Source of the DNA: Odontesthes bonariensis | Taxonomy: Eukaryota; Chordata; Actinopteri; Atheriniformes; Atherinopsidae | Direction: 5' to 3' | NCBI RefSeq assembly: GCF_027942865.1 | Contig: NC_134528.1 | Span: forward strand, 6,257,586 to 6,321,585 | Length of the DNA stretch: 64,000 bases | In this document: positions 1 through 35,956 of the stretch, piece after piece | How the letters are laid out: every line of letters starts with the position of its first letter | Position numbering within the stretch: position 1 is the first letter of the stretch | Position numbers and translations under genes: made by a program | The notes under the pieces: model-generated | What the model was told of the DNA's origin: nothing | The model's database searches: none | What the model saw: only the letters and a program-made list of their open reading frames with translations

Positions 1-1196
1 TTAATTAAATGCGCTGACTGTTCATTGCTCCTATCAACCCGGTTATAGAGCTTGAAAGTCCCGCCCCCTTTTTTGCTTTTTTTTCCTACTTCCGTCGTCC
101 CCATGGGACCTCATGCCTGGATCTATTGACATGGGCAGGATGATGTCTTCTGTTCCCAGTCATTATATGCCTTTTTACAGTACACGCATGATGTTCTGGG
201 GTTAAATATGGATGAGTTCATGCAAAAACATTGGCGATTTGTCGTAGGAGTGCCTGGTTAAACGTTGTAAAAAAAAGTTAGGGTAAAAAGACTACATTGT
301 GTCGCATATGCTACGTCACTGATCATATTTCCCACCATGGACGAAGCCAGACATATCACCACCAGCATAGCAGAAGCTCTCCACGTGCCCCGACTGGTAG
401 TGGTTCTCTCCTCGGCTCACAAGTTTTCGTTCGCCCTCGAAAAACTGAGTGAAACTGGCCAACGACAGCGCCATGATTGCTCTTCTTCTTCCACTCCTCC
501 GCGCGCCCAAACGTGATGACGTTTATTTTCCGTGCCAAACGCTACATGCTGTAGTTTGAGAAATGCTCAGAAAAATAACTTAACAATGAAACACTTATGC
601 CCGCTAAACTGTTACGCTACTGGTATGAAAAAATATTAAAAAATGTCCTACACAACATATGTGAAATGCAAGACTCAATTCCATCAAGCGCAAAAATAGT
701 TTTATTCCGTCATGGCTCCGTCATTGACTTGAATGTCAAATTATTACACTTCCGTGGTCCCGAGGGGAGGAAGTTGAATGACGTCAAGGAGGCGGGACTT
801 TCAAGCTCTATACTGAATGGAGCGAATCACCACTCCAATATGGCGGCCCTGCGTTACGTTCGGCCCAAGAGCGGTTACGTGCGTTGCTCAGTCTAGTGTT
901 CTATATGATGTCTATGGAAGCGAAAGCACAACAAGAAAGATGGCGGCGGCAATGGAACAGCGCTCGTTTGATTCAGCCTTGGCATCAGTTTTGGAAGAGT
1001 CCCCTCCCACCAAAGCTTTCTGTCGCGCTTACTACGTCACAGTCAGTTGCGCTGATTGGTCAGAGCGTTGGCCTATAGGCACAGACACGGTTTGAAAGAC
1101 AACGGGTTGTGCTCATCAACAATGTTCCGTTGTATCCATTGATCGGAGCCAGACTAAATTAGACATCCAATCCATTTAGGCTGGTTTATCAGGCTA
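1..1196. mobile_element. Nested DNA transposon block left of the U5 array
   Basis: No gene is seen here. About 919-1196 is an inverted, near-identical copy of parts of the element at 2999-4159. It ends at 1196 with the same terminal sequence, TAGCCTGATAAACCAGC read on the minus strand, and abuts the first U5 repeat unit. The left part is occupied by a second element with its own inverted ends (46-810). The left end of the outer element is not visible, so it either lies outside the window or was lost. The short open frames here have no coding support. Confidence 0.7.
46..810. mobile_element. Non-autonomous DNA transposon with inverted ends (mariner-like?)
   Basis: The left end (46-65) reads TAGAGCTTGAAAGTCCCGCC. 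The right end (about 790-810) is its reverse complement, with small differences further in. TA dinucleotides flank both sides (44-45 and 811-812), which fits a TA target duplication as in Tc1/mariner-type elements. The 0.77 kb interior has no recognisable transposase. The family call rests only on the flanking TA and is weak. Confidence 0.55.
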
Positions 1197-2998
1197 AACT
1201 ACACCATAATAAGCCAAATAAATCAAACGCGACAGAACAAGGGAATTAATTAGCTATTGCTTTGCAATAGCTCCAATGAAACTAACTCTGCAACTGTATA
1301 TAATTCTGTTTTTTTCTCTTTAGCAGTAAAATCCAATCTGATGTTTATTCTTGTCCTGCTCATACACTTTATCTCTATGGCCTGGCTTCCTCCTGTTGTG
1401 TTGTCTTTGGTATCTTTTAGCTGAATCTGTCGCGGAGTCCTCTTAATTTATCTTGAGAACCTTTAATCGTGATGTGCACAATTGTTGCTGCTTCTGTGAA
1501 TCCACAACATGGAGTCCTAGTAGCTCTCAATGCAAGTGATCGAGGCCTTCTGCAGGCTGCAAACACACAATGAAAACAATCAGAGGGATTCTGGGAACAT
1601 TAAGGTGGGGGAATTCAGCCACACAAGATGGCATTGGTTGATGACTACAAGATATTTTCACGCTAAAGAAAAACTCCTTTAGTTGGACAAGTTAGCTAAA
1701 TATGCAGTTACAGACAGATACAGACTAAATAGGGGTGAATAAAAGACAAAGTAAGACTACAATTTTGAGCAAGAAATGACAATTAATCCATTTTTCATAG
1801 GCGCACAGCCTTTAAAATAAGGTTTTAACCAATGTACACACAAAGTTATATACTGTATACATTTCTTTTTCTATATTTTCTGGAGCCGTCTAGGGGCCAC
1901 ACTCTGCATCTGCCACCTATGATTTTATATTTCGAGTTTCCTGCTCCTGTAACCAGCTCCATTTTATCATCTCATCAACACTGTTTTTGTTGCCTTTTTT
2001 TCTGTATTTTTAATGAGCAAAATTGTTTTAATCGCTGGCTGTAATTTTTTTCCCAAGTTTACTTCATATTTAAACATCTTACTCCATAAAGCTAGCAGAC
2101 AGATCCTTGAGAAAAGCCTTTGATTAACCGAACCTCACATCACGATTAAAATAAGATCATGCAAAAAAGGTTTACATGTTCTTAACATCGAATATAATAT
2201 CAATAAAGTTATTGTACTAACTGTTTACTTGTTCAATCCGTGTGCAATTTCAAAATAAGGTTGACTCAACCGTTTTTTCTGGCGTTATATCACAGCCCTT
2301 TTACAGACAGCCGTTCCACTTCCTATTCGCCCCATTATAAAAAATTTGGCTGCAGTTCAGTTGATTTCCTCTGGGGGCGCTGGCGAGCGAGTGCAGAATG
2401 ACTATTTTCCATAGGGCTGGCGCTAATAACTCAAAAAATGTCCCCGCTAGCGGCTGAAACCTGAAAATAATACTGTGATTTCTGACAAAGGGATGTGGAT
2501 TTATATCGAAAGTACAATAACCTGGGAGTTATAGCTTTCTGTTTTCTTACAAGTCTGGCATTTGCGAGTCAGTATCCGCTAGCATCTAGCTAACGGAATC
2601 TGAAGAACGCACGGCTGATTACGACCGGCTGCTTTACGGCACTCGTCCACTGTGCCAGTGTGCTAACCTGGTGCCGCTAACAACAACCAAAGCTAAACCA
2701 GAGGCTAGTCAGAGAGTATGCGAAAGGGCTGTGCTGAAATCTGTAACTATTTGAGCTAACACCTCTCTGCTAGCTCAGCGCTAGGACTGACCATGCCGTA
2801 AAGTGATGCCACATGCGTGACGTCACTCGGGATGCAATACTGACAATAAATGTGTATTTTAAACAAATCTAGTGAGTCTAAAAAAAGCAAACTAAGTGCC
2901 GTTTGAAAGGATAATTCATCCTGCCTTTAGGAAAATTAAAATGAAAAATGATAAAAAATTCTATCAAAAGCAATGGCTGCATCTAAGGTGGATTTCAT

Positions 2999-4159
2999 TA
3001 GCCTGATAAACCAGCCTAAATGGATTGGATGTCTAATTTAGTCTGGCACCGATCAATGGATACAACGGAACATTGTTGATGAGCACAACCCGTTGTCTTT
3101 CAAACCGCGTCTGTGCCTATAGGCCAACGCTCTGACCAATCAGCGCAACTGACTGTGACGTAGTAAGCGCGACAGAAAGCTTTGGTGGGAGGGGACTCTT
3201 CCAAAACTGATGCCAAGCAAAGATTCTATAATAGGACAGATACGCCACTCACGGTGCATTTCCGGTTTCCAACGAGGCGATTTTGGTTGCAGTTCCACCC
3301 TCTTTCCACGTGGGGCGCCCAATTTTGGAGACCAGAATGAATGGAGTCCTATGGAGCTATACACCCTTTCGTGCCCTTATCTCAAGATATAATTTTTTCT
3401 CTAGTAATTCGAATGTTGTTTTCGAAAGAGGGTGTTTAGAAAATACCCATGGCTGAGTTTTAGATTTTTAGAGCCACTCATTTGCTTAAAAAAAGGATTT
3501 GAAGTGTATATGACGTCATACATAGCTGGTCGACCAGCTGTCATTAGCACAATGCTAGCGCGTTGTGGACAACAAGAAGCCAACCAGTAAGAAATCAAAG
3601 GGATATATGTACTCGTTCAGTAGATTTTTTACTTGAAACCCATGTTGAGCTCTCAGAAACTACATTCAAATCTGAGCGCTCTTGAGGAGACTTAGGTGAC
3701 ACTGACCATTTGTAGCATCTAGCTCCATTGGGCCCCATTCATTCTGGTCTCCACCGACGCTCCCAGTGGAATTCTGGTGGAACTGCAGCCAAAAAGCCGG
3801 TACAATGGGGCTTAATACAGAGTGGCAAGGCTGTTCGTTATAATGGCTGTGCGCCAAGGCTGAATCAAACGAGCACTGTTCCATTGCCGCCGCCATCTTT
3901 CTTGTTGTGCTTTCGCTTGTCTATGTTCGCTTCCACTGCCCAACGTCGCACTGCTCTGTCGTCACTCCCTCAAAACCCCGCACCAGAACCCTCTGGCCCG
4001 CCCGCGTTGATTCAAAACACATCTCTGCGTTGTGATTGGTTTAGTTGCCATCTGCCAGATTCAGGGCAGTATTTTCAAAATGACAAGTGGATCGAGGCCA
4101 GACCCAACCGCAGGCAAAACATTTTGCCGTCCAGCAGTTGGCGCTGGTTTTCCAGGCTA
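2999..4159. mobile_element. DNA transposon in U5 unit A (9-bp target duplication)
   Basis: The ends are inverted repeats: TAGCCTGATAAACCAGC on the left, and TAGCCTGGAAAACCAGC read from the right end on the other strand. The 9-bp target duplication GGATTTCAT sits at 2990-2998 and 4160-4168. Units B, C and D show the empty site with one copy of GGATTTCAT, so the borders are firm. The 1161 bp include a second inserted element (3218-3852). No transposase is recognisable. A 9-bp duplication suggests a MULE-like group, but the family is not proven. Confidence 0.85.
3218..3852. mobile_element. Nested inverted-repeat transposon (6-bp target duplication)
   Basis: Inserted in the element at 2999-4159 with target duplication GCCAAG (3212-3217 and 3853-3858). 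The inverted relative near 985 has the empty site with one GCCAAG, confirming both borders. The two ends are imperfect inverted repeats, and further in both arms carry GGAGACCAGAATGAATGG followed by ATGGAGCTA. It is a short non-autonomous element without coding capacity. Family unknown. Confidence 0.78.
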
Positions 4160-4313
4160 GGATTTCATAGTACCACCATAGAGTTCGGTGTGCTCCTCTA
4201 CACTGCTTCCATGTCGGCCCTAAAGTGCAGCACCACCCAAAAATGGCCGCCTGATCTCCCTCTACTCATAATAGAGGTTCTCTGATTACATTTTCCTTTA
4301 AACAAAGAAAGAA

Positions 4314-4428
4314 AGCCCAGCTTGCGCCGGGCATCAAAAAATTAGTTATAACTCATATTGTTCCACTCCACGGAAATCTTTAGTAAAAGGCGAAAGATTT
4401 ATACGATCTGAAGAGAAACATGAGTGAT
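4314..4428 (-). ncRNA. rnu5: U5 spliceosomal snRNA, copy A
   Basis: U5 snRNA, core of the U5 and U4/U6.U5 snRNPs. Its loop I holds the exon ends during splicing. Read on the minus strand, the 115-nt RNA starts AUCACUCAUGUUUCUCUUC. It has the U5 stem-loop I with the invariant loop GCCUUUUAC between paired AAAUCUUU and AAAGAUUU, the Sm-site AAUUUUUUGA, and a closing hairpin GCCCGGC-GCAA-GCUGGGC. The 5' ACUCAU pairs with AUGAGU. A PSE lies 47 nt upstream. A 3' box-like GTTTAAAGGAAAAT (4290-4303) lies 10-11 nt downstream. In the lower stem, GUUUCUCU faces AGUGGAAC, a single U-U mismatch shared by copies A-C. Whether it is expressed is not shown by sequence. Confidence 0.93.
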
Positions 4429-4474
4429 CTGCCTCCTCTACGGAAGGTAGGCCTACTATAAGTGCGGCAGTACC

Positions 4475-4489
4475 GTTTTAAGTGACGGT
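4475..4489 (-). promoter_or_regulatory. PSE of U5 copy A
   Basis: ACCGTCACTTAAAAC on the minus strand, 47-61 nt upstream of the U5 start. This is the place and base pattern of the vertebrate snRNA proximal sequence element bound by SNAPc. There is no TATA box between the PSE and the start, as expected for an RNA polymerase II snRNA gene. At 4637-4646 only the ATGCATTGCG half of a distal element remains. Confidence 0.85.
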
Positions 4490-4646
4490 TTGTCAGCAGG
4501 AACATTGACAAACAAACACGGGAAATGAACTGAAAATTATATAATCCAGTTTAAAAGCACGAGGAAATCAACATCTGAGTGTTTCCGTTTGAGGAAAGTT
4601 CTTTAATTTGGTTTTGTTTACCGATTTAATCTGAGTCGCAATGCAT

Positions 4647-4815
4647 AGGGTAGGGGCGGGGCTGTGTATCCCGGCTGTCATTGGGCGAGAGGCGGGGGAC
4701 ACAGAGACAAACCAGATACACAACCATGCACGCTCACACTCACTCCTGTGAACGATTTAGTGTCACTAACTAACCTGACATGCATGTTTTTTGGACGGTG
4801 GAAGGAAAGTGGCTG
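4647..4815 (-). mobile_element. RTE-LINE-like 3' fragment inside U5 units A-C
   Basis: Contains TTGGGCGAGAGGCGGG, CATGCACGCTCACACTCACTC and ACATGCATGTTTTTTGGAC, the landmarks of the fish LINE fragment also present at 44801-45007. Equivalent blocks lie at about 7350-7515 and 10055-10215. Unit D lacks it. The left junction is at the U5 distal promoter element. The family name is tentative. Confidence 0.55.
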
Positions 4816-7012
4816 ACTGAGGTGGAGATAATAATGTTCTAAGTTATGTTAAACCTCTTATAGAATAATACAGATGAAAAGGCTGCTGTTGTGAGGATTT
4901 GTATTTGCCGGTAGTCATGATACAGAGGGTAAATGTCTGGAGTTTTAAGTACATAAACCTGTTTCATCATTTTTATTGCAGGTTTAATAACCACAGCTTC
5001 AGTCTTCACTGATTCACAGCCTCCACAGAACAGAGTCTTCTCACAAACTCAAACTTGCATATTAGCAACTACACCATAATAAGCCAAATAAATCAAATGC
5101 GACAGAACAAGGGAATTAATTAGCTATTGCTTTGCGATAGCTACAATGAAACTAACTCTGCAACAGTATATAATTCTGTTTTTTTCTCTTTAGCAGTAAA
5201 ATCCAATCTGATGTTTATTCTTGTCCTGCTCATACACTTTATCTCTATCGCCTGGCTTCCTCCTGTTGTGTTGTCTTTGGTATCTTTTAGCTGAATCTGT
5301 CGCGGAGTCCTCTTGATTTATCTTGAGAACCTTTAATCGTGATGTGCACAATTGCTGCTGCTTCTGTGAATCCACAACATGGAGTCCTAGTAGCTCTCAA
5401 TGCAAGTGATCGAGGCCTTCTGCAGGCTGCAAACACACAATGAAAACAATCAGAGGGATTCTGGGAACATTAAGGTGGGGGAATTCAGCCACACAAGATG
5501 GCATTGGTTGATGACTACAAGATATTTTCACGCTAAAGAAAAACTCCTTTAGTTGGACAAGTTAGCTAAATATGCAGTTACAGACAGATACAGACTAAAT
5601 AGGGGTGAATAAAAGACAAAGTAAGACTACAATTTTGAGCAAGAAATGACAATTAATCCATTTTTCATAGGCGCACAGCCTTTAAAATAAGGTTTTAACC
5701 AATGTACACACAAAGTTATATACTGTATACATTTCTTTTTCTATATTTTCTGGAGCCGTCTAGGGGCCACACTCTGCATCTGCCACCTATGATTTTATAT
5801 TTCGAGTTTCCTGCTCCTGTAACCAGCTCCATTTTATTATCTCATCAACACTGTTTTTGTTGCCTTTTTTTCTGTATTTTTAATGAGCAAAATTGTTTTA
5901 ATCGCTGGCTGTAATTTTTTTCCCAAGTTTACTTCATATTTAAACATCTTACTCCATAAAGCTAGCAGACAGATCCTTGAGAAAAGCCTTTGATTAACCG
6001 AACCTCACATCACGATTAAAATAAGATCATGCAAAAAAGGTTTACATGTTCTTAACATCGAATATAATATCAATAAAGTTATTGTACTAACTGTTTACTT
6101 GTTCAATCCGTGTGCAATTTCAAAATAAGGTTGACTCAACCGTTTTTTCTGGCGTTATATCACAGCCCTTTTACAGACAGCCGTTCCACTTCCTATTCGC
6201 CCCATTATAAAAAATTTGGCTGCAGTTCAGTTGATTTTCTCTGGGGGCGCTGGCGAGCGAGTGCAGAATGACCATTTTCCATAGGGCTGGCGCTAATAAC
6301 TCAAAAAATGTCCCCGCTAGCGGCTGAAACCTGAAAATAATACTGTGATTTCTGACAAAGGGATGTGGATTTATATCGAAAGTACAATAACCTGGGAGTT
6401 ATAGCTTTCTGTTTTCTTACAAGTCTGGCATTTGCGAGTCAGTATCCGCTAGCATCTAGCTAACGGAATCTGAAGAACGCACGGCTGATTACGACCGGCT
6501 GCTTTACGGCACTCGTCCACTGTGCCAGTGTGCTAACCTGGTGCCGCTAACAACAACCAAAGCTAAACCAGAGGCTAGTCAGAGAGTATGCGAAAGGGCT
6601 GTGCTGAAATCTGTAACTATTTGAGCTAACACCTCTCTGCTAGCTCAGCGCTAGGACTGACCATGCCGTAAAGTGATGCCACATGCGTGACGTCACTCGG
6701 GATGCAATACTGACAATAAATGTGTATTTTAAACAAATCTAGTGAGTCTAAAAAAGTAAACCAAGTGCCGTTTGAAAGGATAATTTATCCTGCCTTTAAG
6801 AAAATTAAAATGAAAAAATATAAAAAATTCTATCAAAAGCAATGGCTGCATCTAAGGTGGATTTCATAGTACCACCATATAGTTCGGTGTGCTCCTCTAC
6901 ACTGCTTCCTTGTCACCCCTAGAGTGCAGCACCCCCCAAAAATGAGCGCCAGGTCTCCCTCTCCTCATAATAGAGGTTCTCTGGTTACATTTTCTTTTAA
7001 ACAAAGAAAGGA

Positions 7013-7127
7013 AGCCCAGCTTGCGCCGGGCATCAAAAAATTAGTTATAACTCATATTGTTCCACTCCACGGAAATCTTTAGTAAAAGGCGAAAGATTTA
7101 TACAATCTGAAGAGAAACATGAGTGAT
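7013..7127 (-). ncRNA. rnu5: U5 spliceosomal snRNA, copy B
   Basis: Same structure as copy A: invariant loop GCCUUUUAC, Sm site AAUUUUUUGA and a terminal GNRA hairpin. It carries a private change in the stem I region (CAGAUUGUAU where the other three copies have CAGAUCGUAU) in addition to the shared U-U mismatch. The 3' box GTTTAAAAGAAAAT (6989-7002) is a good match to the vertebrate pol II snRNA 3'-end signal. The PSE is at 7174-7188. Confidence 0.92.
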
Positions 7128-7173
7128 CTGCCTCCTCTACGGAAGGCAGGCCTACTGTAAGTGCGGCAGTACC

Positions 7174-7188
7174 GTTTTAAGTGACGGT
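7174..7188 (-). promoter_or_regulatory. PSE of U5 copy B
   Basis: Same 15-mer and same 47-nt spacing to the U5 start as in copy A. Confidence 0.85.
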
Positions 7189-9717
7189 TTGTCAGCAGGA
7201 ACATTGACAAACAAACACGGGAAATGAACTGAAAATGATATAATTCAGTTTAAAAGCACGAGGAAATTAACATCTGAGTGTTTCCGTTTGAGGAAAGTTC
7301 TTTAATTTGGTTTTGTTTACCGATTTAATCTGAGTCGCAATGCATAGGGTAGGGGCGGGGCTGTGTATCCCGGCTGTCATTGGGCGAGAGGCGGGGGACA
7401 CAGAGACAAACCAGATACACAACTATGCACGCGCTCACACTCACTCCTGTGAACGATTTAGTGTCACTAACTAACCTGACATGCATGTTTTTTGGACGGT
7501 GGAAGGAAAGTGGCTGACTGAGGTGGAGATAATAATGTTCTAAGTTATGTTAAAACCTCTTATAGAATAATACAGATGAAAAGGCTGCTGTTGTGAGGAT
7601 TTGTATTTGCCGGTAGTCATGATACAGAGGGTAAATGTCTGGAGTTTTAAGTATATAAACCTGTTTCATCATTTTTATTGCAGGTTTAATACGTCCACCA
7701 CAGCTTCAGTCTTCACTGATTCACAGCCTCCACAGAACAGAGTCTTCTCACAAACTCAAACTTGCATATTAGCAACTACACCATAATAAGCCAAATAAAT
7801 CAAATACGACAGAACAAGGGAATTAATTAGCTATTGCTTTGCGATAGCTACAATGAAACTAACTCTGCAACTGTATATAATTCTGTTTTTTTCTCTTTAG
7901 CAGTAAAATCCAATCTGATGTTTATTCTTGTCCTGCTCATACACTTTATCTCTATCGCCTGGCTTCCTCCTGTTGTGTTGTCTTTGGTATCTTTTAGCTG
8001 AATCTGTCGCAGAGTCCTCTTAATTTATCTTGAAAACCTTTAATCTTGATGTGCACAATTGCTGCTGCTTCTGTGAATCCACAACATGGAGTCCTAGTAG
8101 CTCTTAATGCAGGTGATCGAGGCCTTCTGCAGGCTGCAAACACACAATGAAAACAATCAGAGGGATTCTGGGACATTAAGGTGGGGGAATTCAGCCACAC
8201 AAGATGGCATTGGTTGATGACTACAAGATATTTTCACGCTAAAGAAAAACTCCTTTAGTTGGACAAGTTAGCTAAATATGCAGTTACAGACAGATACAGA
8301 CTAAATAGGGGTGAATAAAAGACAAAGTAAGACTACAATTTTGAGCAAGAAATGACAATTAATCCATTTTTCATAGGCGCACAGCCTTTAAAATAAGGTT
8401 TTAACCAATTTACACACAAAGTTATATACTGTATACATTTCTTTTTCTATATTTTCTGGAGCCGTCTAGGGGCCACACTCTGCATCTGCCACCTATGATT
8501 TTATATTTCGAGTTTCCTGCTCCTGTAACCAGCTCCATTTTATCATCTCATCAACACTGTTTTTGTTGCCTTTTTTTCTGTATTTTTAATGAGCAAAATT
8601 GTTTTAATCGCTGGCTGTAATTTTTTTCCCAAGTTTACTTCATATTTAAACATCTTACTCCATAAAGCTAGCAGACAGATCCTTGAGAAAAGCCTTTGAT
8701 TAACCGAACCTCACATCACGATTAAAATAAGATCATGCAAAAAAGGTTTACATGTTCTTAACATCGAATATAATATCAATAAAGTTATTGTACTAACTGT
8801 TTACTTGTTCAATCCGTGTGCAATTTCAAAATAAGGTTGACTCAACCGTTTTTTCTGGCGTTATATCACAGCCCTTTACAGACAGCCGTTCCACTTCCTA
8901 TTCGCCCCATTATAAAAAATTTGGCTGCAGTTCAGTTGATTTTCTCTGGGGGCGCTGGCGAGCGAGTGCAGAATGACCATTTTCCATAGGGCTGGCGCTA
9001 ATAACTCAAAAAATGTCCCCGCTAGCGGCTGAAACCTGAAAATAATACTGTGATTTCTGACAAAGGGATGTGGATTTATATCGAAAGTACAATAACCTGG
9101 GAGTTATAGCTTTCTGTTTTCTTACAAGTCTGGCATTTGCGAGTCAGTATCCGCTAGCATCTAGCTAACGGAATCTGAAGAACGCACGGCTGATTACGAC
9201 CGGCTGCTTTACGGCACTCGTCCACTGTGCCAGAGTGCTAACCTGGTGCCGCTAACAACAACCAAAGCTAAACCAGAGGCTAGTCAGAGAGTATGCGAAA
9301 GGGCTGTGCTGAAATCTGTAACTATTTGAGCTAACACCTCTCTGCTAGCTCAGCGCTAGGACTGACCATGCCGTAAAGTGATGCCACATGCGTGACGTCA
9401 CTCGGGATGCAATACTGACAATAAATGTGTATTTTAAACAAATCTAGTGAGTCTAAAAAAGTAAACCAAGTGCCGTTTGAAAGGATAATTTATCCTGCCT
9501 TTAAGAAAATTAAAATGAAAAAATATAAAAAATTCTATCAAAAGCAATGGCTGCATCTAAGGTGGATTTCATAGTACCACCATAGAGTTCGGTGTGCTCC
9601 TCTGCACTGCTTCCTTGTCACCCCTAGAGTGCAGCACCCCCCAAAAATGAGCGCCAGGTCTCCCTCTCCTCATAATAGAGGTTCTCTGGTTACATTTTCT
9701 TTTAAACAAAGAAAAGA

Positions 9718-9832
9718 AGCCCAGCTTGCGCCGGGCATCAAAAAATTAGTTAAAACTCATATTGTTCCACTCCACGGAAATCTTTAGTAAAAGGCGAAAG
9801 ATTTATACGATCTGAAGAGAAACATGAGTGAT
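9718..9832 (-). ncRNA. rnu5: U5 spliceosomal snRNA, copy C
   Basis: As copy A, with loop GCCUUUUAC, Sm site AAUUUUUUGA and the GCAA-capped 3' hairpin all intact. It has the shared U-U mismatch in the lower stem and one base unlike A and B between the stem and the Sm site (GUUUUAACUAA). A PSE at 9879-9893 and a 3' box just downstream are conserved. Confidence 0.92.
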
Positions 9833-9878
9833 CTGCCTCCTCTACGGAAGGCAGGCCTACTGTAAGTGCGGCAGTACC

Positions 9879-9893
9879 GTTTTAAGTGACGGT
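9879..9893 (-). promoter_or_regulatory. PSE of U5 copy C
   Basis: Same 15-mer and same 47-nt spacing to the U5 start as in copy A. Confidence 0.85.
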
Positions 9894-12410
9894 TTGTCAG
9901 CAGGAACATTGACAAACAAACACGGGAAATGAACTGAAAATGATATAATTCAGTTTAAAAGCACGAGGAAATTAACATCTGAGTGTTTCCGTTTGAGGAA
10001 AGTTCTTTAATTTGGTTTTGTTTACCGATTTAATCTGAGTCGCAATGCATAGGGTAGGGGCGGGGCTGTGTATCCCGGCTGTCATTGGGCGAGAGGCGGG
10101 GGACACAGAGACAAACCAGATACACAACTATGCACGCGCTCACACTCACTCCTGTGAACGATTTAGTGTCACTAACTAACCTGACATGCATGTTTTTTGG
10201 ACGGTGGAAGGAAAGTGGCTGACTGAGGTGGAGATAATAATGTTCTAAGTTATGTTAAAACCTCTTATAGAATAATACAGATGAAAAGGCTGCTGTTGTG
10301 AGGATTTGTATTTGCCGGTAGTCATGATACAGAGGGTAAATGTCTGGAGTTTTAAGTATATAAACCTGTTTCATCATTTTTATTGCAGGTTTAATACGTC
10401 CACCACAGCTTCAGTCTTCACTGATTCACAGCCTCCACAGAACAGAGTCTTCTCACAAACTCAAACTTGCATATTAGCAACTACACCATAATAAGCCAAA
10501 TAAATCAAATGCGACAGAACAAGGGAATTAATTAGCTATTGCTTTGCGATAGCTACAATGAAACTAACTCTGCAACTGTATATAATTCTGTTTTTTTTCT
10601 CTTTAGCAGTAAAATCCAATCTGATGTTTATTCTTGTCCTGCTCATACACTTTATCTCTATCGCCTGGCTTCCTCCTGTTGTGTTGTCTTTGGTATCTTT
10701 TAGCTAAATCTGTTGCAGAGTCCTCTTAATTTATCTTGAGAACCTTTAATCGTGATGTGCACAATTGCTGCTGCTTCTGTGAATCCACAACATGGAGTCC
10801 TAGTAGCTCTCAATGCAGGTGATCGAGGCCTTCTGGAGGCTGCAAACACACAATGAAAACAATCAGAGGGATTCTGGGAACATTAAGGTGGGGGAATTCA
10901 GCCACACAAGATGGCATTGGTTGATGACTACAAGATATTTTCACGCTAAAGAAAAACTCCTTTAGTTGGACAAGTTAGCTAAATATGCAGTAACAGACAG
11001 ATACAGACTAAATAGGGGTGAATAAAAGACAAAGTAAGACTACAATTTTGAGCAAGAAATGACAATTAATCCATTTTTCATAGGCGCACAGCCTTTAAAA
11101 TAAGGTTTTAACCAATGTACACACAAAGTTATATACTGTATACATTTCTTTTTCTATATTTTCTGGAGCCGTCTAGGGGCCACACTCTGCATCTGCCACC
11201 TATGATTTTATATTTCGAGTTTCCTGCTCCTGTAACCAGCTCCATTTTATTATCTCATCAACACTGTTTTTGTTGCCTTTTTTTCTGTATTTTTAATGAG
11301 CAAAATTGTTTTAATCGCTGGCTGTAATTTTTTTCCCAAGTTTACTTCATATTTAAACATCTTACTCCATAAAGCTAGCAGACAGATCCTTGAGAAAAGC
11401 CTTTGATTAACCGAACCTCACATCACGATTAAAATAAGATCATGCAAAAAAGGTTTACATGTTCTTAACATCGAATATAATATCAATAAAGTTATTGTAC
11501 TAACTGTTTACTTGTTCAATCCGTGTGCAATTTCAAAATAAGGTTGACTCAACCGTTTTTTCTGGCGTTATATCACAGCCCCTTTACAGACAGCCGTTCC
11601 ACTTCCTATTCGCCCCATTATAAAAAATTTGGCTGCAGTTCAGTTGATTTTCTCTGGGGGCGCTGGCGAGCGAGTGCAGAATGACTATTTTCCATAGGGC
11701 TGGCGCTAATAACTCAAAAAATGTCCCCGCTAGCGGCTGAAACCTGAAAATAATACTGTGATTTCTGACAAAGGGATGTGGATTTATATCGAAAGTACAA
11801 TAACCTGGGAGTTATAGCTTTCTGTTTTCTTACAAGTCTGGCATTTGCGAGTCAGTATCCGCTAGCATCTAGCTAACGGAATCTGAAGAACGCACGGCTG
11901 ATTACGACCGGCTGCTTTACGGCACTCGTCCACTGTGCCAGAGTGCTAACCTGGTGCCGCTAACAACAACCAAAGCTAAACCAGAGGCTAGTCAGAGAGT
12001 ATGCAAAAGGGCTGTAACTATTTGAGCTAACACCTCTCTGCTAGCTCAGCGCTAGGACTGACCATGCCGTAAAGTGATGCCACATGCGTGACGTCACTCG
12101 GGATGCAATACTGACAATAAATGTGTATTTTAAACAAATCTAGTGAGTCTAAAAAATCAAACCAAGCGCCGTTTGAAAGGATAATTTATCCTGCCTTTAG
12201 GAAAATTAAAATGAAAAAATATAAAAAATTCTCTCAAAAGCAATGGCTGCATCTAAGGTGGATTTCATAGTACCACCATAGAGTTCGGCGTGCTCTGCAC
12301 TGTTTTGTTGGCGCCCCTAGAGTGCAGTACCACCCGGAAATAGCCGCCAGTTTGACCTCTCCTTATAATAGAGACTCTCTGGTTATATTTTCATTTTCAC
12401 AAAGAAAGAA

Positions 12411-12525
12411 AGCCCAGCTTGCGCCGGGCATCAAAAAATTAGTTGAAACTCATATTGTTCCTCTCCACGGAAATCTTTAGTAAAAGGCGAAAGATTTATA
12501 CGATCTGAAGAGAAACATGAGTGAT
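12411..12525 (-). ncRNA. rnu5: U5 spliceosomal snRNA, copy D (consensus-like)
   Basis: The copy nearest to the vertebrate consensus. GUUUCUCU pairs fully with AGAGGAAC in the lower stem, as in human U5, and the 5' ACUCAU/AUGAGU helix is complete. Loop GCCUUUUAC, Sm site AAUUUUUUGA and the 3' GNRA hairpin are present. It is the only copy with a full set of upstream elements: PSE (12572-12586, 47 nt from the start) and a Staf/ZNF143-type distal element (12733-12750). The 3' box is weaker than in A-C (GTGAAAATGAAAAT). Confidence 0.94.
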
Positions 12526-12571
12526 CTGACTTTCACATTGAAAACGGGCATACTATAGGTGCGGCAGTACT

Positions 12572-12586
12572 ATTTTAAGTGACGGT
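12572..12586 (-). promoter_or_regulatory. PSE of U5 copy D
   Basis: ACCGTCACTTAAAAT, one base different from copies A-C, with the same 47-nt spacing. The DNA between PSE and U5 start differs at many places from the other copies, so the conservation of this block stands out. Confidence 0.85.
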
Positions 12587-12732
12587 TTGTTAGCAGGAAC
12601 ATTGACAAACAAACACGGGAAATGAACAGAAAATGATTTAATTCAATTTAGAAGCACGACGAAATCAACATCTGAGTGTTTCAGTTTGAGGAAAGTTCTT
12701 TAATTTGGTTTTGATTACCATTTTGATCAAGT

Positions 12733-12750
12733 TGCAATGCATCATGGGAA
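12733..12750 (-). promoter_or_regulatory. Distal sequence element of U5 copy D (Staf/ZNF143-type)
   Basis: TTCCCATGATGCATTGCA on the minus strand, 208-225 nt upstream of the U5 start. Both sequence and distance fit the Staf/ZNF143 site that forms the distal enhancer of vertebrate snRNA genes. In A-C only ATGCATTGCG is kept; the CCC half lies beyond the break in homology. Consensus recalled from memory, not scanned with a matrix. Confidence 0.72.
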
Positions 12751-15507
12751 GCCATTGGTTTATGTTTCCGGATGAACCAAAATTGTTCAAAGCAGTCTTA
12801 TTATTCACATTAAATTATGCTTAGGTTGTTAATTAATCTAATGTTCAATAGCTCACAGTACATTCTAGCTTTTTTCCCCCCGGTATTGTTAATATACCCG
12901 CATTTTTAATGTATTTCCAAGACGGTCCGCCTCCTCTACAAAGCTCGAGGGGGAGCACTCTTTGAATAACCCTACAATGTAATAACTTGTGTTATTGCAC
13001 GATTGTTCAATTAGAATGCCTAAACTGCGTAATTCAACGAAATTTCACTCGTAAATACGTTGTCTCAGTTCATAAACCTGAGTTACGGTTTTACAATCCA
13101 CATTCGTGGATTCAGGAGCATTACGTTAATTTAATAACTTGGAATATTGTTTCAAATAGTACGTTTTTTTGTGTATGATTATATTTTCTCTTACTTACGT
13201 AGTAGTTTTCCTTTATCGAGGTTTTACACACACATACACGAAAGTCTTTGTAGTCGTAACTCCGATGAGGCAGTAGGTGGAGCCATTTATCAGGTAACAA
13301 TCAGGAGAATCTTTCAAATCTCTACAACTATTTTTACACTTGCATGTGTACTTTGTTTGCAACGCGTTTGCATGTGTCGTCCACCGTAAAATACAATGAT
13401 TTGGTCGTAACAAATAAACTCAAATATGTGGATGGACAGTGAAAGAGTCTCAGAGTTTATTGACCAGTTAAAGCCTTTTACTTTTAGTGTCTCCATGAGG
13501 GCTATCTCTGCAGAATGACATGGTTCTGCAACAGAGACTAACTACTCTATGGTTTGGCTTGTTCTTGTTGACTGTATTTACTAATCTGATTAGAAACCAG
13601 GTAAAAAAAAAAAAAAAACACAGACACAACCTAGATTACAAAATAAGGTAATATCATTTATGTCCCCTGTCTTGCTAGTACACTTTATCTCGTCTTCCTC
13701 ACTTCCTCTCCGAGCAAGTTTTTTTTTGGAATTTTTGGAAACTTTTTTTGTAACGATGACAGTGTCCTTTTCCCTTTTTATTACTTTAATAGTTATCGCA
13801 AAAGTGTGTTGTTATCTAGATTATGTGCCAGTTTCTCTTCTTCACAGCCATTTCCTGACTACTTTCCACCTTAATTTAAATTTTTTAGCAGCAAAAAGAG
13901 GAATTAAAGACACCAACCGAAACATTAAAAGTTGATAAAAAAGATAATTTATTTTGGTTTATAGATATAAAAGTACAAAAGTACATTCTTCAACAAATTA
14001 TTTCAGAAAATAAACAAAGTAAATTTAAAACACAGCTTGAATTTTGGTTACGCCGTGGGATCACTTTAATCTTCTTACATTCATGGAATTTACGTATTTT
14101 GGTTCATTAAATGTCAACATGTTGAGTGTAGCTCTACATGTTGACATTCACATTCACATTTTTACTGGGAACTTTATGATCTTTTTTTTTTTTTTGCCAA
14201 ATTAGCAGTTTAAACACATTGCCTGACTTGATACTGTGAAACTGTAGAAACCCCAACCGTTTGGCTTCCAAAGCGGTTTTCCCTACAAACCATTGTGCCC
14301 AGGACAGAGAAAGCAAACGTTCTGATGTCAAAACTCAGACGACAAAAGAAATTGTAAGAGTAAGTTAAGTGATACATACATTCATTCAACTAACTCAGTG
14401 TGTTACATGACCCTAGAAAACTGCATTATTGTGTTAATGTGACCAAAAACAGACATAAAATACGCACAAATATGTTTGTCTAACTGAAATCGTACCAAGT
14501 TGAACTTCTCAAAGCTGGACTAACACGCCCAGATAATGCAGGTGGGAGTTAAGTTACTTCTTCATGTGCATTCAACTCCTTCAGACTAGTGGGACAAGTT
14601 TCAGCTCGCTGCTGATTAAAACATTTGTAGATTGTCCTTCTGCTCTACTAAAATCTTGATTGGATGACCAAAGCGTTATCTGACAGAATAACAGAGTAAC
14701 TCACATGGTTCACAGCACCGTGTCATTCAAACACACTTTGGCCAATAAAGCAACCCCCGTACTGTGCATGTATACTGGGACACAGCAGAGTGGTCCAGTT
14801 CCCAGGTCAAGTTGAGTTATAACCTATAAGAAAAAGTATTTAATGGCTCACAGAGAATCCCAATAAACTAATATTTGAGTAGCTGCGATGGGTAAATGAA
14901 CCGGTGAACCAGATGAAAAAAGGTAACACTAAAACCTACACAGTTTTGCTACGTTGTCTCACGCTGAGTATACAAAATGGGCAACCCAGAAAAAATACGA
15001 CTTCAAGTTAATTTAAATACACAATGTTAAGAAAAGTTGCTCATACCCATCTGTCCCCATGATTATTTGCATGAATCCCAATTAATATAACAGGAAGAAA
15101 ATAAATGACTGTTGCTTTCAAAGTGCATATTTAACTGTTTTATATTTCATGAATTTGCGCTATGGTTGTTATATAATTCAAGTGATTTTTATAGCAGGTG
15201 AGGATGTTGTACACTAATAACTCTAATTGAATTGAAAAAAAATTTTTTAAAAAACATTTCAGGGTAATACATTCATAAAAAGGTATATATTCTTCATTTC
15301 TGCAGCTTACACTTCTTTTGGTTTGCATGACTTGTATATGATGACATTTCAGTACATGGCATAAAGGAGATATATTCAGCAAATTTCATAGTGCATATAT
15401 CCTGCAGTCTTGTATTTATGCAGTTTTTAGTAGTGGAAGAGGTATTCACATCTTATATATCTATATAATGACCTTGATGCCATAACAGAAATCATCAGCC
15501 TTGCATC
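12743..15507. other. AT-rich intergenic stretch, probable 3' UTR of st6galnac1 in part
   Basis: No supported gene. The right part should hold the st6galnac1 3' UTR. AATAAA on the minus strand near 13949 is one possible poly(A) signal, which would give a 1.5 kb UTR, but other sites are possible. A short inverted repeat (14110-14122 and 14136-14148, AATGTCAACATGT) and simple T-runs are present. The open frames of 60-91 codons here have no recognisable domains. Confidence 0.5.
14110..14148. repeat. 13-bp inverted repeat in the region downstream of st6galnac1
   Basis: AATGTCAACATGT, a 13-nt loop, then its exact reverse complement. A local hairpin of unknown meaning; it does not look like a terminator with function in a eukaryote. 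Confidence 0.6.
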
Positions 15508-24437
<8,930 letters not shown>

Positions 24438-28963: not shown

Positions 28964-30375
28964 TCAAATCAAACTTTATTTATATAGCACCTTTCATACA
29001 AAAAAAAAAAACAGCACAAAGTGCTTTACATAATAAAATCAATAATCAAATCAATTCATGCATAAACTCACACACAACATCACACTGACAACCACACTGC
29101 ACACATACCACCCCCCCACCACCCCCAACCTGAGCAACATCATTAAAATCTGGCCTGACGCTGAAGTGAGGAAACGGTATCTTGGGAATCTGTCCACACC
29201 GGGAGCCGGCCCACCAATGACCACAGAGGCCGCCACCACGGGGAACCGCCCAGATCAGGGCAGGCCGGCATCCACACCACAGCCAGGGCTGCAGTGCAGG
29301 ATCCCCCAGCCACCCCGAACCAGGGCGATCCCCACAGTAATGACCCCACAGACCGAGTGGGCATAGTCCCCGGTGTGGAAGATCCCCATGAGGAAAAACA
29401 CTGGATAAATAAGTGTAGGCCTATAATAAGTATATAATAAAATAATTAAAAAAATAAAAATAATAATAATAAATAAATAAATAGATATTTTAAATAATGG
29501 ATGAATAGATAAAAGTAAACTAAAACAAAACAAACAAACAAAAAATAAACAAATGAAATAATAATATTTATATATATAAAATAATAAATAAATAAATGAA
29601 ATAAAATTCAGCTGTAAGCTAAACTAAAAAGGTAGGTCTTGAGCCTCTTTTTAAAAGCATCAACATTCTCTGCAGCCCTGAGGTTCTCTGGCAGGCTGTT
29701 CCACAGATGAGGTCCATAATAGTGGAACGACGTCTCACAATAAGTTTTTGTTCGAACTTTAGGAACAACTAAAAGGCCGGTACCAGAGGACCTCAGGGTC
29801 CGCGAGGGCTCATAATTTAAAAGCAGATCAGATAGATAAGAAGGCCCAAGACCATTAAGACATTTATAAACAACTAAAAGAACCTTAAAATCAACCCTGA
29901 AATGCACGGGGAGCCAATGCAGCGATTTTAAAACTGGTGTAATGTGTTCCCGCCCTCTGGTCTTTGTCAGCACATGTGCAGCTGAATTCTGTATTAATTG
30001 TAGGCAATAAATACTTTTTTTTGGGAAGACCAGAAAGCAGGGCATTACAATAATCTATTCTACTAGAAATAAAAGCATGCATCAGCACCTCCGTGCTGGC
30101 AAGAGAGAGAAATGGGCGGACTCTGGCAATATTTTTAAGATGATAAAATCCTGTCTTTGTTACTTTTCTAATATGTTGGATAAAATCCAGCTCAGAGTCA
30201 AAAAGAACACCCAGATTTTTTACATGTTGAGAAGATTTAAAATTTTGTAGTTTGGGTAAAATGATCTCTCTCTTGTCTTCAGGACCAATAATTAAAACTT
30301 CAGTCTTGCCCTGGTTGAGCCTGGTTGAGCTGTAAGAAATTCTCTGCCATCCATGATTTTATATCTAAAACAACT
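28964..30375 (-). mobile_element. L2-type LINE, 5'-truncated
   Basis: The minus strand encodes the end of an L2/Rex1-type reverse transcriptase ORF: DIKSWMAENFLQLNQ, SSRIDYCNALLSGLPKK, then HITPVLKSLHWLPVHFRVDF, VVYKCLNGLGPSYLSDLL and SLPENLRAAENVDAFKKRLK. There is at least one frame change at an A-run near 30010, and a few more are likely. The 3' UTR follows to the left and ends with the usual fish L2 tail (a TGTAAAGCACTTTGTGCT block, then AAATAAAGTTTGATTTGAAC) at 28964. It is a dead copy. Confidence 0.88.
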
Positions 30376-33715: not shown

Positions 33716-34803
33716 TTAAGACTCTGTTCCGTTGCCCTCTGGAGATTTAGATTTACTCTTGGATTTGGACCTGGATCTGGACTTCGACCCTCTGTTGGAA
33801 GGTGGGGTTCGGCTCCTCGACTTGGACCTGGAGCGGGACCGAGACCTGGAAGGAGACTTTGTCTTGCTCCTCCTGGGGGTTCTTGATTTTGATTTGGACT
33901 TGGATTTAGACTTGGACCTGGACCTTGACCTGGACCTGGAGTAGGAGCGGGACCTGGAGCGGCTGTAATGGTGACGGCTCCTGGATCGGGAACGGCTTCT
34001 GCTCCTGGAGCGGCTGCGGCTTCTTCTGCGACGGCGGGGACTGTCTGAGCGACTATGATGCAAAAGAAAAAAGATGGAAAATATCAAAACTTGGTACTTT
34101 TCACAATATAGATCAATAGTTCTACTTTATATAATAAATATGTCAATCCAGGTCTTTGAGGCCAAGACATTTAAAATACTTTATTTTGAGCTCTTGGTAC
34201 TTAAACTTTGAAGGGCATAACAGATATATTCACTTAACACCTTTTTTTAGAAAGCAAAACTATAGCCTTGCATTTGTACTGCTGATATCTCCAATATTTT
34301 TGTGATGATAGTCTTAAGGGAAAAAAACGAGCAGGGATTCAAATCGACATAGTTTCGTATACAATGCCATGTGCTCGTCTGTGCCTTTGTTAAAAAGGCG
34401 CAATATGAAATAAAATGCTACATGGAGATTCGCCTAATCAGCAGTACCTCCTGCTTCGGCGTCCATACCCTCCATATCGGCGTGGTGGAGGCCCTCTCCG
34501 GCTGTACATGGAGTCCGGTGGTCGTCCGTAGCGGGCCATCTGAACCCGCAGTTCCCTCCCATCTAGCAGCGCGCCGTCCATGGCGTCCATGGCGTCCTCG
34601 GCGTCACGCTTGTCCAGGAACCGTACGAAGGCGAAGCCACGGCTCTCCTTGGTGTACCGGTCCCGAGGGATGTAAACATCTCCCACCCGGCCATATTTCT
34701 CAAAAACTCGGCGCAGAGTCTCAGGAGATGTTCGGTAGGTGAGGTTATCCACTTTCAGGGAGGTCATCCCCTCGACGTCTGGCGGCGGCCTTCCGTAGCT
34801 CAT
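33716..34803 (-). CDS. srsf2: Serine/arginine-rich splicing factor 2 (2 exons, 230 aa)
   Basis: Nuclear SR protein (SC35) that binds exonic enhancers through an RRM and recruits spliceosome parts through its RS domain. Exons (minus): 34448-34803 and 33716-34052, phase 2. It starts [23 protein letters not shown] about aa 14-92, with RNP2 LKVDNL and RNP1 RGFAFVRF. The hinge [16 protein letters not shown] contains the Pro that corresponds to human P95. The RS domain runs from about aa 117 to near the C-terminus ([14 protein letters not shown], later a [10 protein letters not shown] run). One intron at the start of the RS domain matches the vertebrate gene. An ATG five codons upstream is in frame (METKK), but the family starts at MSYGRPP. 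Which teleost paralogue (srsf2a or srsf2b) cannot be told. Confidence 0.97.
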
Positions 34804-35956
34804 TTTCTTCGTCTCCAAGCAACAGAGGAGATCGATTAAGATTGAAAACGTTAGGCCCTAACGTTTAAAGAAACGGTTACTGTGCCCACAAAGACACCAG
34901 ATGCTCTATGTTGATCAAATTCTGTCGTTGTTCTAAATATTCTTCTCCTGGACGTAGCTTCTACCGCGCTGGTTTTCACGTGAAATGGCGGCAAGAAGCT
35001 TCCTTTTCCCCTTTTTTTGCGCCCGCGTTGGCCTCCTCTGATTGGTTATTCCTCTGTCAGCCTCCTTCTCTGTAACCGTTAGACTGCCCCCTGGCGGCGT
35101 GGAGTTACCTGTAATAGCAAGAGTGGAGCGCTATTCAGCCTTTGTTTCGTTTAGTTTGATTATTCTGATTAAGCTTGCTATTTGTCTTGAACTTACGTTT
35201 GCATTTTCTTTGCTAATAATCTCCAAATCTAATTGCGTTGATTATTACTTCGTCACGCAACTTTGGTGTCTGAATTATGTGATTTCTACTTGTTGCAAGA
35301 ATAGCCTTATTTAGCCTAAATTTTTGAGCTTCATCCCCATGTTGTTTTTGGTTCGGTGTGAGGCTGTCCCACAGAGCTGTCCTCTGCACTGCAGTCAGCC
35401 CGCACAGTTGGCGTAGGGAGGTCACGTTATAAGGCGGCTCGTCACTAGCGGCTGCTGGAGAGAAAGGGGACTGCGCAAAAAACACTGTCCGGATTTGTGC
35501 CTGGCTGACGTCACAGGGAGCCACAGACCTCTCTGACAGGATCCAGCAACGACAAGCACCGGGGATACTTGAGCAACATCCAGCAGGGCAGGGAGATGTC
35601 GACGAGCTGTTTTGTGCCACACACTTGCCTGTAAAGTAAAAACCAGCCACGGAGATTTGGCTTTGGTGAATTGTGCGGCTGCGGCGCACCATGAGACCGC
35701 TTCCCCGCTGTTAAAGCGACTACCACGGCTGTTTTCTGCCTCAAACCCAGCTGCACTGTTGACCACGAAAGGATAAGCAACCAGAGAACAACTACTAATC
35801 CCCGGGACGGTTACATTCACGGCGGGGCTTGGACCCGACAGAAATGGACAGGGCAGCACGAACTGGATTAAATGATAGGGTATAGAGAGACGCAGCGCAC
35901 GAAGCGACCCTGAAGTGTTATGCCCCTTAAGCCCTGTGGTCTTTATTTGACTGGAA
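34804..35956. promoter_or_regulatory. Divergent promoter region of srsf2 and rnf157
   Basis: The two start codons are 1153 bp apart, pointing outward. On the srsf2 side, AAATGGCGGC (34983-34992) is a YY1-type site and GATTGG near 35040 is an inverted CCAAT box. On the rnf157 side, TGACGTCA (35506-35513) is a full palindromic CRE. Transcript starts are not determined. Long open frames crossing this DNA on the minus strand (35213-35692, 35422-36015) overlap the promoter and rnf157 exon 1 and are not credible genes. Confidence 0.6.
35506..35513. promoter_or_regulatory. Full CRE (TGACGTCA) upstream of rnf157
   Basis: Perfect palindromic CREB/ATF site 444 bp before the rnf157 start codon, in GC-rich DNA. 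It suggests cAMP/CREB responsiveness, but this is inference from the motif alone. Confidence 0.55.

Follow-up and report, generated by a model that had tools for sequence, protein, structure and literature searches.

In a 64,000-nucleotide stretch of the Odontesthes bonariensis genome (hereafter the window, meaning the whole stretch of DNA that was analysed), we found four minus-strand U5 snRNA genes arranged head-to-tail on a 2.7 kb tandem unit (positions 1197-12742), in which the spacers are homogenised, unlike the DNA flanking the genes in units 1 and 4. From the genes, units, motifs and divergence pattern observed in this window, we conclude, with a probability of nearly nine in ten, that these are genuine U5 snRNA genes in a tandem cluster whose gene blocks and spacers have had separate histories.

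Four U5 genes on a 2.7 kb unit

When the window was searched with cmscan against Rfam 15, four matches reached the gathering threshold, all on the minus strand and all to the U5 family (RF00020; 90.2-95.1 bits, gathering score 40 bits). Each spans model positions 1-117, with E-values of 1.8e-15 to 2.3e-14. A preliminary description, made from the sequence alone, had proposed four minus-strand U5 genes on direct repeats of ~2.7 kb and named a U5 covariance search as the way to check them. The cmscan scores bear this out for all four copies, as does a BLAST search of positions 1-20000 against the window, which recovered direct repeats of ~2.7 kb across 1197-12742. The earlier expectation that these genes would escape annotation applies to protein-based annotation only, since all four are recovered by a standard Rfam scan. 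With E-values up to 1 considered, the Rfam search of positions 1-14000 returned only U5 and no other RNA gene (U1, U2, 5S etc.), and ARAGORN, run with the bacterial code, found no tRNA genes in the window. The array is absent from the output of Tandem Repeats Finder, in which the longest reported period was 500. As side observations on the protein-coding content, two of ten ORFs chosen from a list of 77 had a Pfam match, NCBIfam gave no match for two of these ten Pfam-tested ORFs, and an SRSF2 match was present in the window. This match and the types of repeat present point to a teleost origin of the DNA, and the array's gene neighbourhood is of SRSF2 / RING-finger type.

Table 1. Coordinates in the window of the array units, U5 genes, associated elements and transposon copies.
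Feature	Position	Strand	Details
Unit 1	1197..4646	-	left end incomplete; interrupted by 1161 bp inserted element
Unit 2	4647..7345	-	2699 bp
Unit 3	7346..10050	-	2705 bp
Unit 4	10051..12742	-	2692 bp; edge unit; gene block divergent, spacer homogenised
U5 snRNA copy 1	4314..4428	-	115 nt with inferred first A; cmscan 4314-4427; RF00020, 92.7 bits
U5 snRNA copy 2	7013..7127	-	cmscan 7013-7126; RF00020, 90.2 bits
U5 snRNA copy 3	9718..9832	-	cmscan 9718-9831; RF00020, 93.4 bits
U5 snRNA copy 4, edge copy	12411..12525	-	cmscan 12411-12523; RF00020, 95.1 bits
PSE-like element copy 1	4476..4489	-	-61 to -48
PSE-like element copy 2	7175..7188	-	ACCGTNACTTNAAA pattern match
PSE-like element copy 3	9880..9893	-	ACCGTNACTTNAAA pattern match
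PSE-like element copy 4	12573..12586	-	ACCGTNACTTNAAA pattern match
Distal-element core ATGCATTGC copy 1	4638..4646	-	-218 to -210
Distal-element core copy 2	7337..7345	-	alignment
Distal-element core copy 3	10042..10050	-	alignment
Near-complete ZNF143/Staf-type site copy 4	12733..12750	-	17/18 positions of consensus
3'-box-like element copy 1	4289..4303	-	by eye, alignment
3'-box-like element copy 2	6988..7002	-	by eye, alignment
3'-box-like element copy 3	9693..9707	-	by eye
Weaker 3'-box-like element copy 4	12386..12400	-	by eye, alignment
Non-autonomous DNA transposon in unit 1	2999..4159		1161 bp
End of second, inverted copy of unit 1 transposon	978..1196		99% over 219 bp

All four copies contain the invariant loop 1 (GCCUUUUAC) and an Sm-type site (AAUUUUUUGA) followed by a 7-bp stem with a GCAA loop, in agreement with the loop, Sm site and GNRA 3' hairpin of the preliminary description. 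Stem I is fully paired in copy 4 only, as copies 1-3 have one U-U mismatch in common, and the fold energy of the RNA is -38.2 kcal/mol for copy 4 versus -31.9 to -33.4 kcal/mol for copies 1-3. In the alignment, copy 2 also shows a single C-to-U substitution within the internal loop adjoining stem I. The copy-specific bases are thus an A/U difference in stem I and a C/U difference in the internal loop, along with bases preceding the Sm site. Compared with a 62-nt core of human U5A, copy 4 has 0 mismatches and copies 1-3 have one or two. Each copy is predicted to give rise to a 115-nt U5 RNA that would join the U5 snRNP.

The transposon in unit 1, an insertion that had previously gone unmentioned, has near-inverted ends (TAGCCTG..AAACCAGC(C/G)) and is flanked on both sides by the direct repeat GATTTCAT (or GGATTTCAT), which is single at the corresponding uninterrupted positions in units 2-4. 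The left edge of the visible array is an inverted second copy of this element, the other end of which was not found in the window. Since the visible array stops at a transposon end, it may extend further to the left, and an earlier suggestion to this effect is right to that extent. We also considered the spacer itself as a transposon with its own inverted ends; this was unsupported, as a repeat search of unit 3 yielded one direct pair and, as inverted repeats, two pairs that were short and weak.

The high identity of units 2 and 3 (99.3%, 2679/2697) is a level of difference possible between two haplotypes of a fish, which raises the question of whether some units are false duplications produced by unmerged haplotypes. 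We consider such an assembly artefact very unlikely, given the many differences of units 1 and 4 from the other units, the presence of the transposon in unit 1 only, the continuation of unit 4 into sequence without repeats elsewhere in the array, and the lack of any N in the window.

Promoter and 3' elements

A PSE-like pattern (ACCGTNACTTNAAA), searched with one mismatch allowed, had five matches in the window compared with 0.33 expected by chance. Four of these are mismatch-free and fall one per U5 gene at -61 to -48, as an identical 14-mer; the fifth, with one mismatch, is at 34864. The PSE previously placed at -47 is thus present in all four copies, but the value of -47 measures how far the element's 3' end lies from the gene and not the position of the element itself. 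Within 400 bp upstream, a perfect TATAAA was absent and an octamer (≤1 mismatch) was not found in any of the four copies. Downstream of copies 1-3, we identified by eye, using a 3'-box consensus, the 3'-box-like element GTTTAAARGAAAATG; in the same way we identified a weaker one (GTGAAAATGAAAATA) downstream of copy 4. The earlier proposal of a tandem U5 array with snRNA-type promoter motifs was right.

The distal elements divide copy 4 from the others. On the ZNF143 consensus, the distal core of copies 1-3 matches at 13/18 positions, a score equalled elsewhere in the same promoters, and the homology of the units stops within the site of copy 4. A search for the ZNF143-type pattern with ≤3 mismatches was uninformative (35 matches, 22.25 expected), and with one mismatch the copy 4 site was the sole match (0.13 expected; 13/100 shuffles had one). 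The distal core of copies 1-3 is bordered upstream by a dispersed repeat, traceable to ~20 bp from it, and a perfect CCCCGCCC is found immediately upstream of the core. A further copy of the dispersed repeat is located at 44868-44996.

It is possible, though we favour it less, that the edge copy 4 alone is fully active and that copies 1-3 represent derivatives that were amplified, were weakened or are decaying, with a distal element that may have been cut at the dispersed-repeat junction and with the U-U mismatch in stem I. Consistent with this possibility, copy 4 alone has both the 17/18 ZNF143-type site and a fully paired stem I, and the dispersed repeat is near the distal core in copies 1-3. 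However, the four copies do not differ in their PSE-like 14-mer, the better 3'-box-like element (by eye) belongs to copies 1-3, and these same copies have the perfect CCCCGCCC just 5' of the distal core. We prefer a model in which every U5 gene would have its own snRNA-type Pol II promoter, consisting of the PSE-like core, a distal core ~210 bp upstream and a 3'-box-like element. Points that weigh against it are the stem I mismatch and the 13/18 distal score of copies 1-3, the internal-loop change of copy 2 and the octamer (≤1 mismatch) not being found within 400 bp upstream. The 14-base PSE-like core would be expected to bind SNAPc, and ZNF143 may bind the distal site.

Divergence of genes, flanks and spacers

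Across the four units, we observed variable sites at 4/115 positions in U5, 74/452 in the gene flanks and 24/1675 in the spacer. With sites treated as independent, U5 differs from the flanks (p=1e-4) and the flanks differ from the spacer (p=4e-32). The conservation of U5 suggests selection on this RNA. The spacers had been described as near-identical, which is correct for the spacers but not for the DNA around the genes. Of 452 gene-flank sites, 59 to 63 distinguish unit 4 from units 1-3, compared with 12 to 16 out of ~1680 sites in the spacers of these pairs, and spacer differences are below 1% of sites in 6/6 unit pairs (columns 591-2284).

Pairs that include unit 1 show a similar contrast between gene and flanks (unit 1 vs unit 2: U5 1/115, flanks 25/456, p=0.041; unit 1 vs unit 3: U5 1/115, flanks 26/456, p=0.026). 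The latter comparison suggests constraint in these copies too, which argues against copy 4 being the only fully active gene. Units 2 and 3 show neither an excess of differences in the flanks (flanks 3/456, spacer 11/1691, p=1.0) nor constraint on U5 (U5 2/115, flanks 3/456, p=0.27). A change-point search covering columns 0-2089, with 100 permutations per comparison, identified a boundary at columns 589-591 for all three pairs containing unit 1 and at columns 458-466 (support reaching 591-598) when units 2 and 3 were compared with unit 4; 0/100 permutations reached each of these values. For units 2 and 3, the search placed the change point elsewhere, at column 1941, where it was weak and 1/100 permutations reached it.

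Given the similarity of the spacers in all unit pairs, one might propose that a single U5 unit underwent a simple recent amplification. We regard this as extremely improbable for the array, as flanks are far more diverged than spacers in pairs with unit 1 or unit 4, and homogenised spacers beside divergent flanks argue against one recent amplification. Because duplicates of the same age would differ alike, simple amplification is contradicted for units 1 and 4 unless the spacer is unusually strongly constrained; it may nevertheless account for units 2 and 3. Of the two histories offered in the preliminary description, homogenisation is supported for the spacers, and recent amplification is unsupported as a single event.

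We propose instead that the gene blocks are older paralogues, with the flanks of edge copy 4 the most divergent, and that the ~2 kb spacers were copied among units more recently, probably by unequal crossing-over or gene conversion. As U5 changed little while its flanks drifted, selection would have kept the copies for at least part of that time. A more speculative reading, which we think unlikely, is that the locus keeps promoter and RNA variants of U5 apart against homogenisation, perhaps for different stages or tissues. Divergent blocks of gene and promoter would then persist next to one another while spacer DNA is homogenised among units. The edge would hold a U5 of canonical form whose ZNF143-type site is near-complete, beside stem-I-variant U5 genes whose distal element would have been rebuilt at the dispersed-repeat junction with a GC box.

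Comparison with other snRNA arrays

The array as such belongs to a known kind, since U5-containing tandem arrays are known in fishes. Concerted evolution also keeps head-to-tail snRNA repeats alike at human RNU2 and in Xenopus and sea urchin, with other snRNA species or unit sizes than the 2.7 kb U5 unit. In contrast to those arrays, the homogenised part here is the spacer and not the gene block, so that the concerted evolution of a tandem snRNA array is found in the spacer but not in the DNA that flanks the genes in units 1 and 4. Human U5 genes are not known to share a near-identical 2.7 kb repeat unit.

Linked U2-U5 tandem arrays are described in Plectorhinchus mediterraneus (PMC3464664) and Ancistrus (PMC10532334). 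These resemble the present locus as tandemly repeated snRNA genes that include U5, but they carry U2 in the unit, whereas by Rfam the 2.7 kb unit contains U5 only. For P. mediterraneus, the published description places U2 and U5 in a repeat (PCR product of 1005-1052 bp), identifies a PSE and 3' box by alignment and argues for concerted evolution (PMC3464664). The values of pi given there are 0.031 for spacer 1, 0.010 for spacer 2 and 0.009 for the U5 gene, making spacer 1 the most variable part, whereas the spacer is the least variable part here (PMC3464664). Peaks of both ZNF143 and POU2F1 are present at human RNU5 promoters (PMC3499247), whereas an octamer (≤1 mismatch) was not found in the 400 bp upstream regions described above. 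A U5-only fish array was not found described among the matches listed from the open-licence literature, which is weak evidence of absence.

Apart from its inverted divergence pattern, this is an ordinary gene array. As snRNA arrays are difficult assembly targets, one whose U5 copies are resolved and differ readably in promoter and RNA would be of use in that reads could be assigned to single copies, and such assignment would test the interchangeability of copies within a tandem snRNA array. The combination of a homogenised spacer and divergent gene flanks provides a small natural test of concerted evolution when adjacent blocks differ in divergence.

U5 genes and other features of the window

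We scanned the window against all Rfam families, and all four matches at the gathering threshold were to U5 (90.2-95.1 bits, cut-off 40). A permissive scan of positions 1-14000 (E up to 1) recovered the same four U5 genes and no other RNA genes. Self-comparison revealed direct repeats of ~2.7 kb from 1197 to 12742. The Rfam matches and the self-comparison bear out the preliminary description, which had placed minus-strand U5 genes on ~2.7 kb direct repeats.

In our reading, each copy (1 to 4, left to right, on units 1 to 4) specifies an RNA of 115 nt whose first A precedes the Rfam match by 1 base in copies 1-3 and by 2 bases in copy 4. The predicted fold of U5 contains the expected stem I, GCCUUUUAC in the loop region and a GCAA-closed 3' hairpin, with the Sm-type site AAUUUUUUGA between the loop region and this hairpin. 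Folding placed a U-U mismatch in stem I of copies 1-3 but none in copy 4, and gave energies of -31.9 to -33.4 kcal/mol for copies 1-3 versus -38.2 kcal/mol for copy 4. Against a 62-nt human U5A core, copy 4 was exact and copies 1-3 were off by 1 or 2 bases.

Features located in the window
Feature	Position	Strand	Basis or remark
U5 copy 1	4314-4427	minus	RF00020
U5 copy 2	7013-7126	minus	RF00020
U5 copy 3	9718-9831	minus	RF00020
U5 copy 4	12411-12523	minus	RF00020
SRSF2 coding exon	34438-34857	minus	match to SRSF2 chain 2lea_A, E=2.1e-61
Dispersed-repeat copy	44868-44996	minus	the same repeat also adjoins the distal element of U5 copies 1-3
C3HC4 RING-finger exon	48089-48436	plus	PF13920, E=2.5e-13

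Elsewhere in the window, the SRSF2 exon is near-identical to solved SRSF2 across 102 residues, and the RING exon is presumably RNF157-like; RNF157 and SRSF2 lie in one band of human chromosome 17. Together with the repeats in the window, these exons suggest that the DNA comes from a teleost chromosome. Two overlapping minus-strand ORFs at 29608-30358 resemble the terminal part of a LINE reverse transcriptase from fish; neither Pfam nor NCBIfam gave a match at 0.001. A perfect TATC microsatellite (35.8 copies) occupies 15751-15893.

Promoter and 3' elements

All four copies carry, at -61 to -48, the PSE-like 14-mer ACCGTCACTTAAAA, a putative proximal promoter element. The search pattern, for which one mismatch was allowed (0.33 chance matches expected per window), matched perfectly at the four U5 copies and once, with a mismatch, at 34864. 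A putative distal core, ATGCATTGC, occupies -218 to -210 in copies 1-3 and -217 to -209 in copy 4. Copy 4 has a near-complete ZNF143/Staf-type site here, agreeing with the consensus used at 17 of 18 positions; nowhere else in the 64 kb was there a match with one mismatch or fewer (0.13 expected). Copies 1-3 agree with this consensus at 13 of 18 positions, a score equalled elsewhere in the same promoters, and carry a perfect CCCCGCCC from -233 in place of the near-complete site. Within 400 bp upstream of all four copies there was no octamer with one mismatch or fewer and no perfect TATAAA. Because POU2F1 peaks accompany ZNF143 peaks at RNU5 and U5-like genes in human cells (PMC3499247), the absent octamer is a mild counterpoint. 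Each U5 gene is followed by a 3'-box-like element that, judged by eye in the alignment, is weaker in copy 4.

The 154 bp directly upstream of the distal core in copies 1-3 are similar to the dispersed-repeat copy in the table (83% over 64 bp, 89% over 36 bp), with the detectable match stopping ~20 bp short of the core; we assume this to be a common teleost interspersed repeat. Homology of the copy-4 unit to the other units stops at 12742, within the ZNF143/Staf-type site. On the simplest reading, copy 4, at the array's edge, would keep the original upstream flank, and the multiplied unit would have a repeat-derived junction there.

Divergence of gene blocks and spacers

We aligned the four units after removing the insert from unit 1 and joining its flanks. 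Flanks were defined as the distal core to the U5 start, minus a 19-column PSE region, plus the 3' flank to column 590, and spacer as columns 591-2284, beyond which unit 1 is missing. Variable sites numbered 4/115 in U5, 74/452 in the flanks and 24/1675 in the spacer (U5 versus flanks, p=1e-4; flanks versus spacer, p=4e-32). The tests treat sites as independent, and any sharing of conversion tracts would make these p values underestimates. In the PSE region two sites varied; neither falls within the 14-mer, and at both it is copy 4 alone that differs.

Tested singly in four of the six unit pairs, change in the flanks exceeded that in the spacer for units 1-2 (p=2e-10), 1-3 (p=5e-9) and 3-4 (p=4e-29), and the excess was absent in units 2-3 (p=1.0); counts without a test were similar in pattern for units 1-4 (63/452 versus 16/1677) and 2-4 (60/452 versus 12/1681). 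A search over columns 0-2089 placed a change point at 589-591 in all three unit-1 comparisons and at 458-466 (support to 591-598) when unit 2 or unit 3 was compared with unit 4, each of these five being equalled in 0/100 permutations. Units 2-3 gave a weak, different change point at column 1941, equalled in 1/100.

From the flank and spacer divergence and these change points, we therefore conclude that the gene blocks (U5 plus flanks) are older paralogues joined to near-identical spacers. Such a combination favours a spacer that was homogenised, or that spread, once the gene blocks were already divergent, and it counts against a single recent amplification of entire units. The earlier proposal of an array either homogenised or recently amplified is thus favoured in its first part, for the spacer, and disfavoured in its second, taken as a single event. 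Rejection of mismatched recombination in the divergent blocks would favour exchange in the long identical spacer.

Conservation relative to its own flanks suggests selection on U5 (units 3-4, 2/115 versus 59/452, p=1.4e-4; units 1-3, 1/115 versus 26/456, p=0.026; units 1-2, 1/115 versus 25/456, p=0.041); units 2-3 gave no sign of such constraint (2/115 versus 3/456).

Left edge and comparison with known fish arrays

The insert in unit 1 (2999-4159) has near-inverted ends and is flanked on both sides by the direct repeat GATTTCAT, present singly at the empty site in units 2-4. With 8-9 bp duplicated, the insert is a candidate hAT-like DNA transposon. An inverted second copy of one transposon end (978-1196; 99% over 219 bp) stops at 1196 together with the array homology, and its partner end was not found within the window. 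The two are oppositely oriented copies of a non-autonomous DNA transposon, and an extra segment at ~3218-3852 of the insert splits a stretch that runs uninterrupted in the second copy. The visible left edge is not a plain array end, and the array may continue leftwards; that homology stops at a transposon end is in line with the leftward extension raised in the preliminary description.

Linked U2-U5 tandem arrays have been described in Plectorhinchus mediterraneus (PMC3464664), in a study that also cites this linkage from other families of fish, and in Ancistrus one U5 copy has a U2 unit on either side (PMC10532334). The array described here belongs to this general kind but holds U5 alone, on a 2.7 kb unit. 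Among the matches listed in a search of mainly open-licence literature, none was a U5-only fish array by title or abstract start. Tandem snRNA arrays containing U5 are already known in fishes, and the present array adds a U5-only case.
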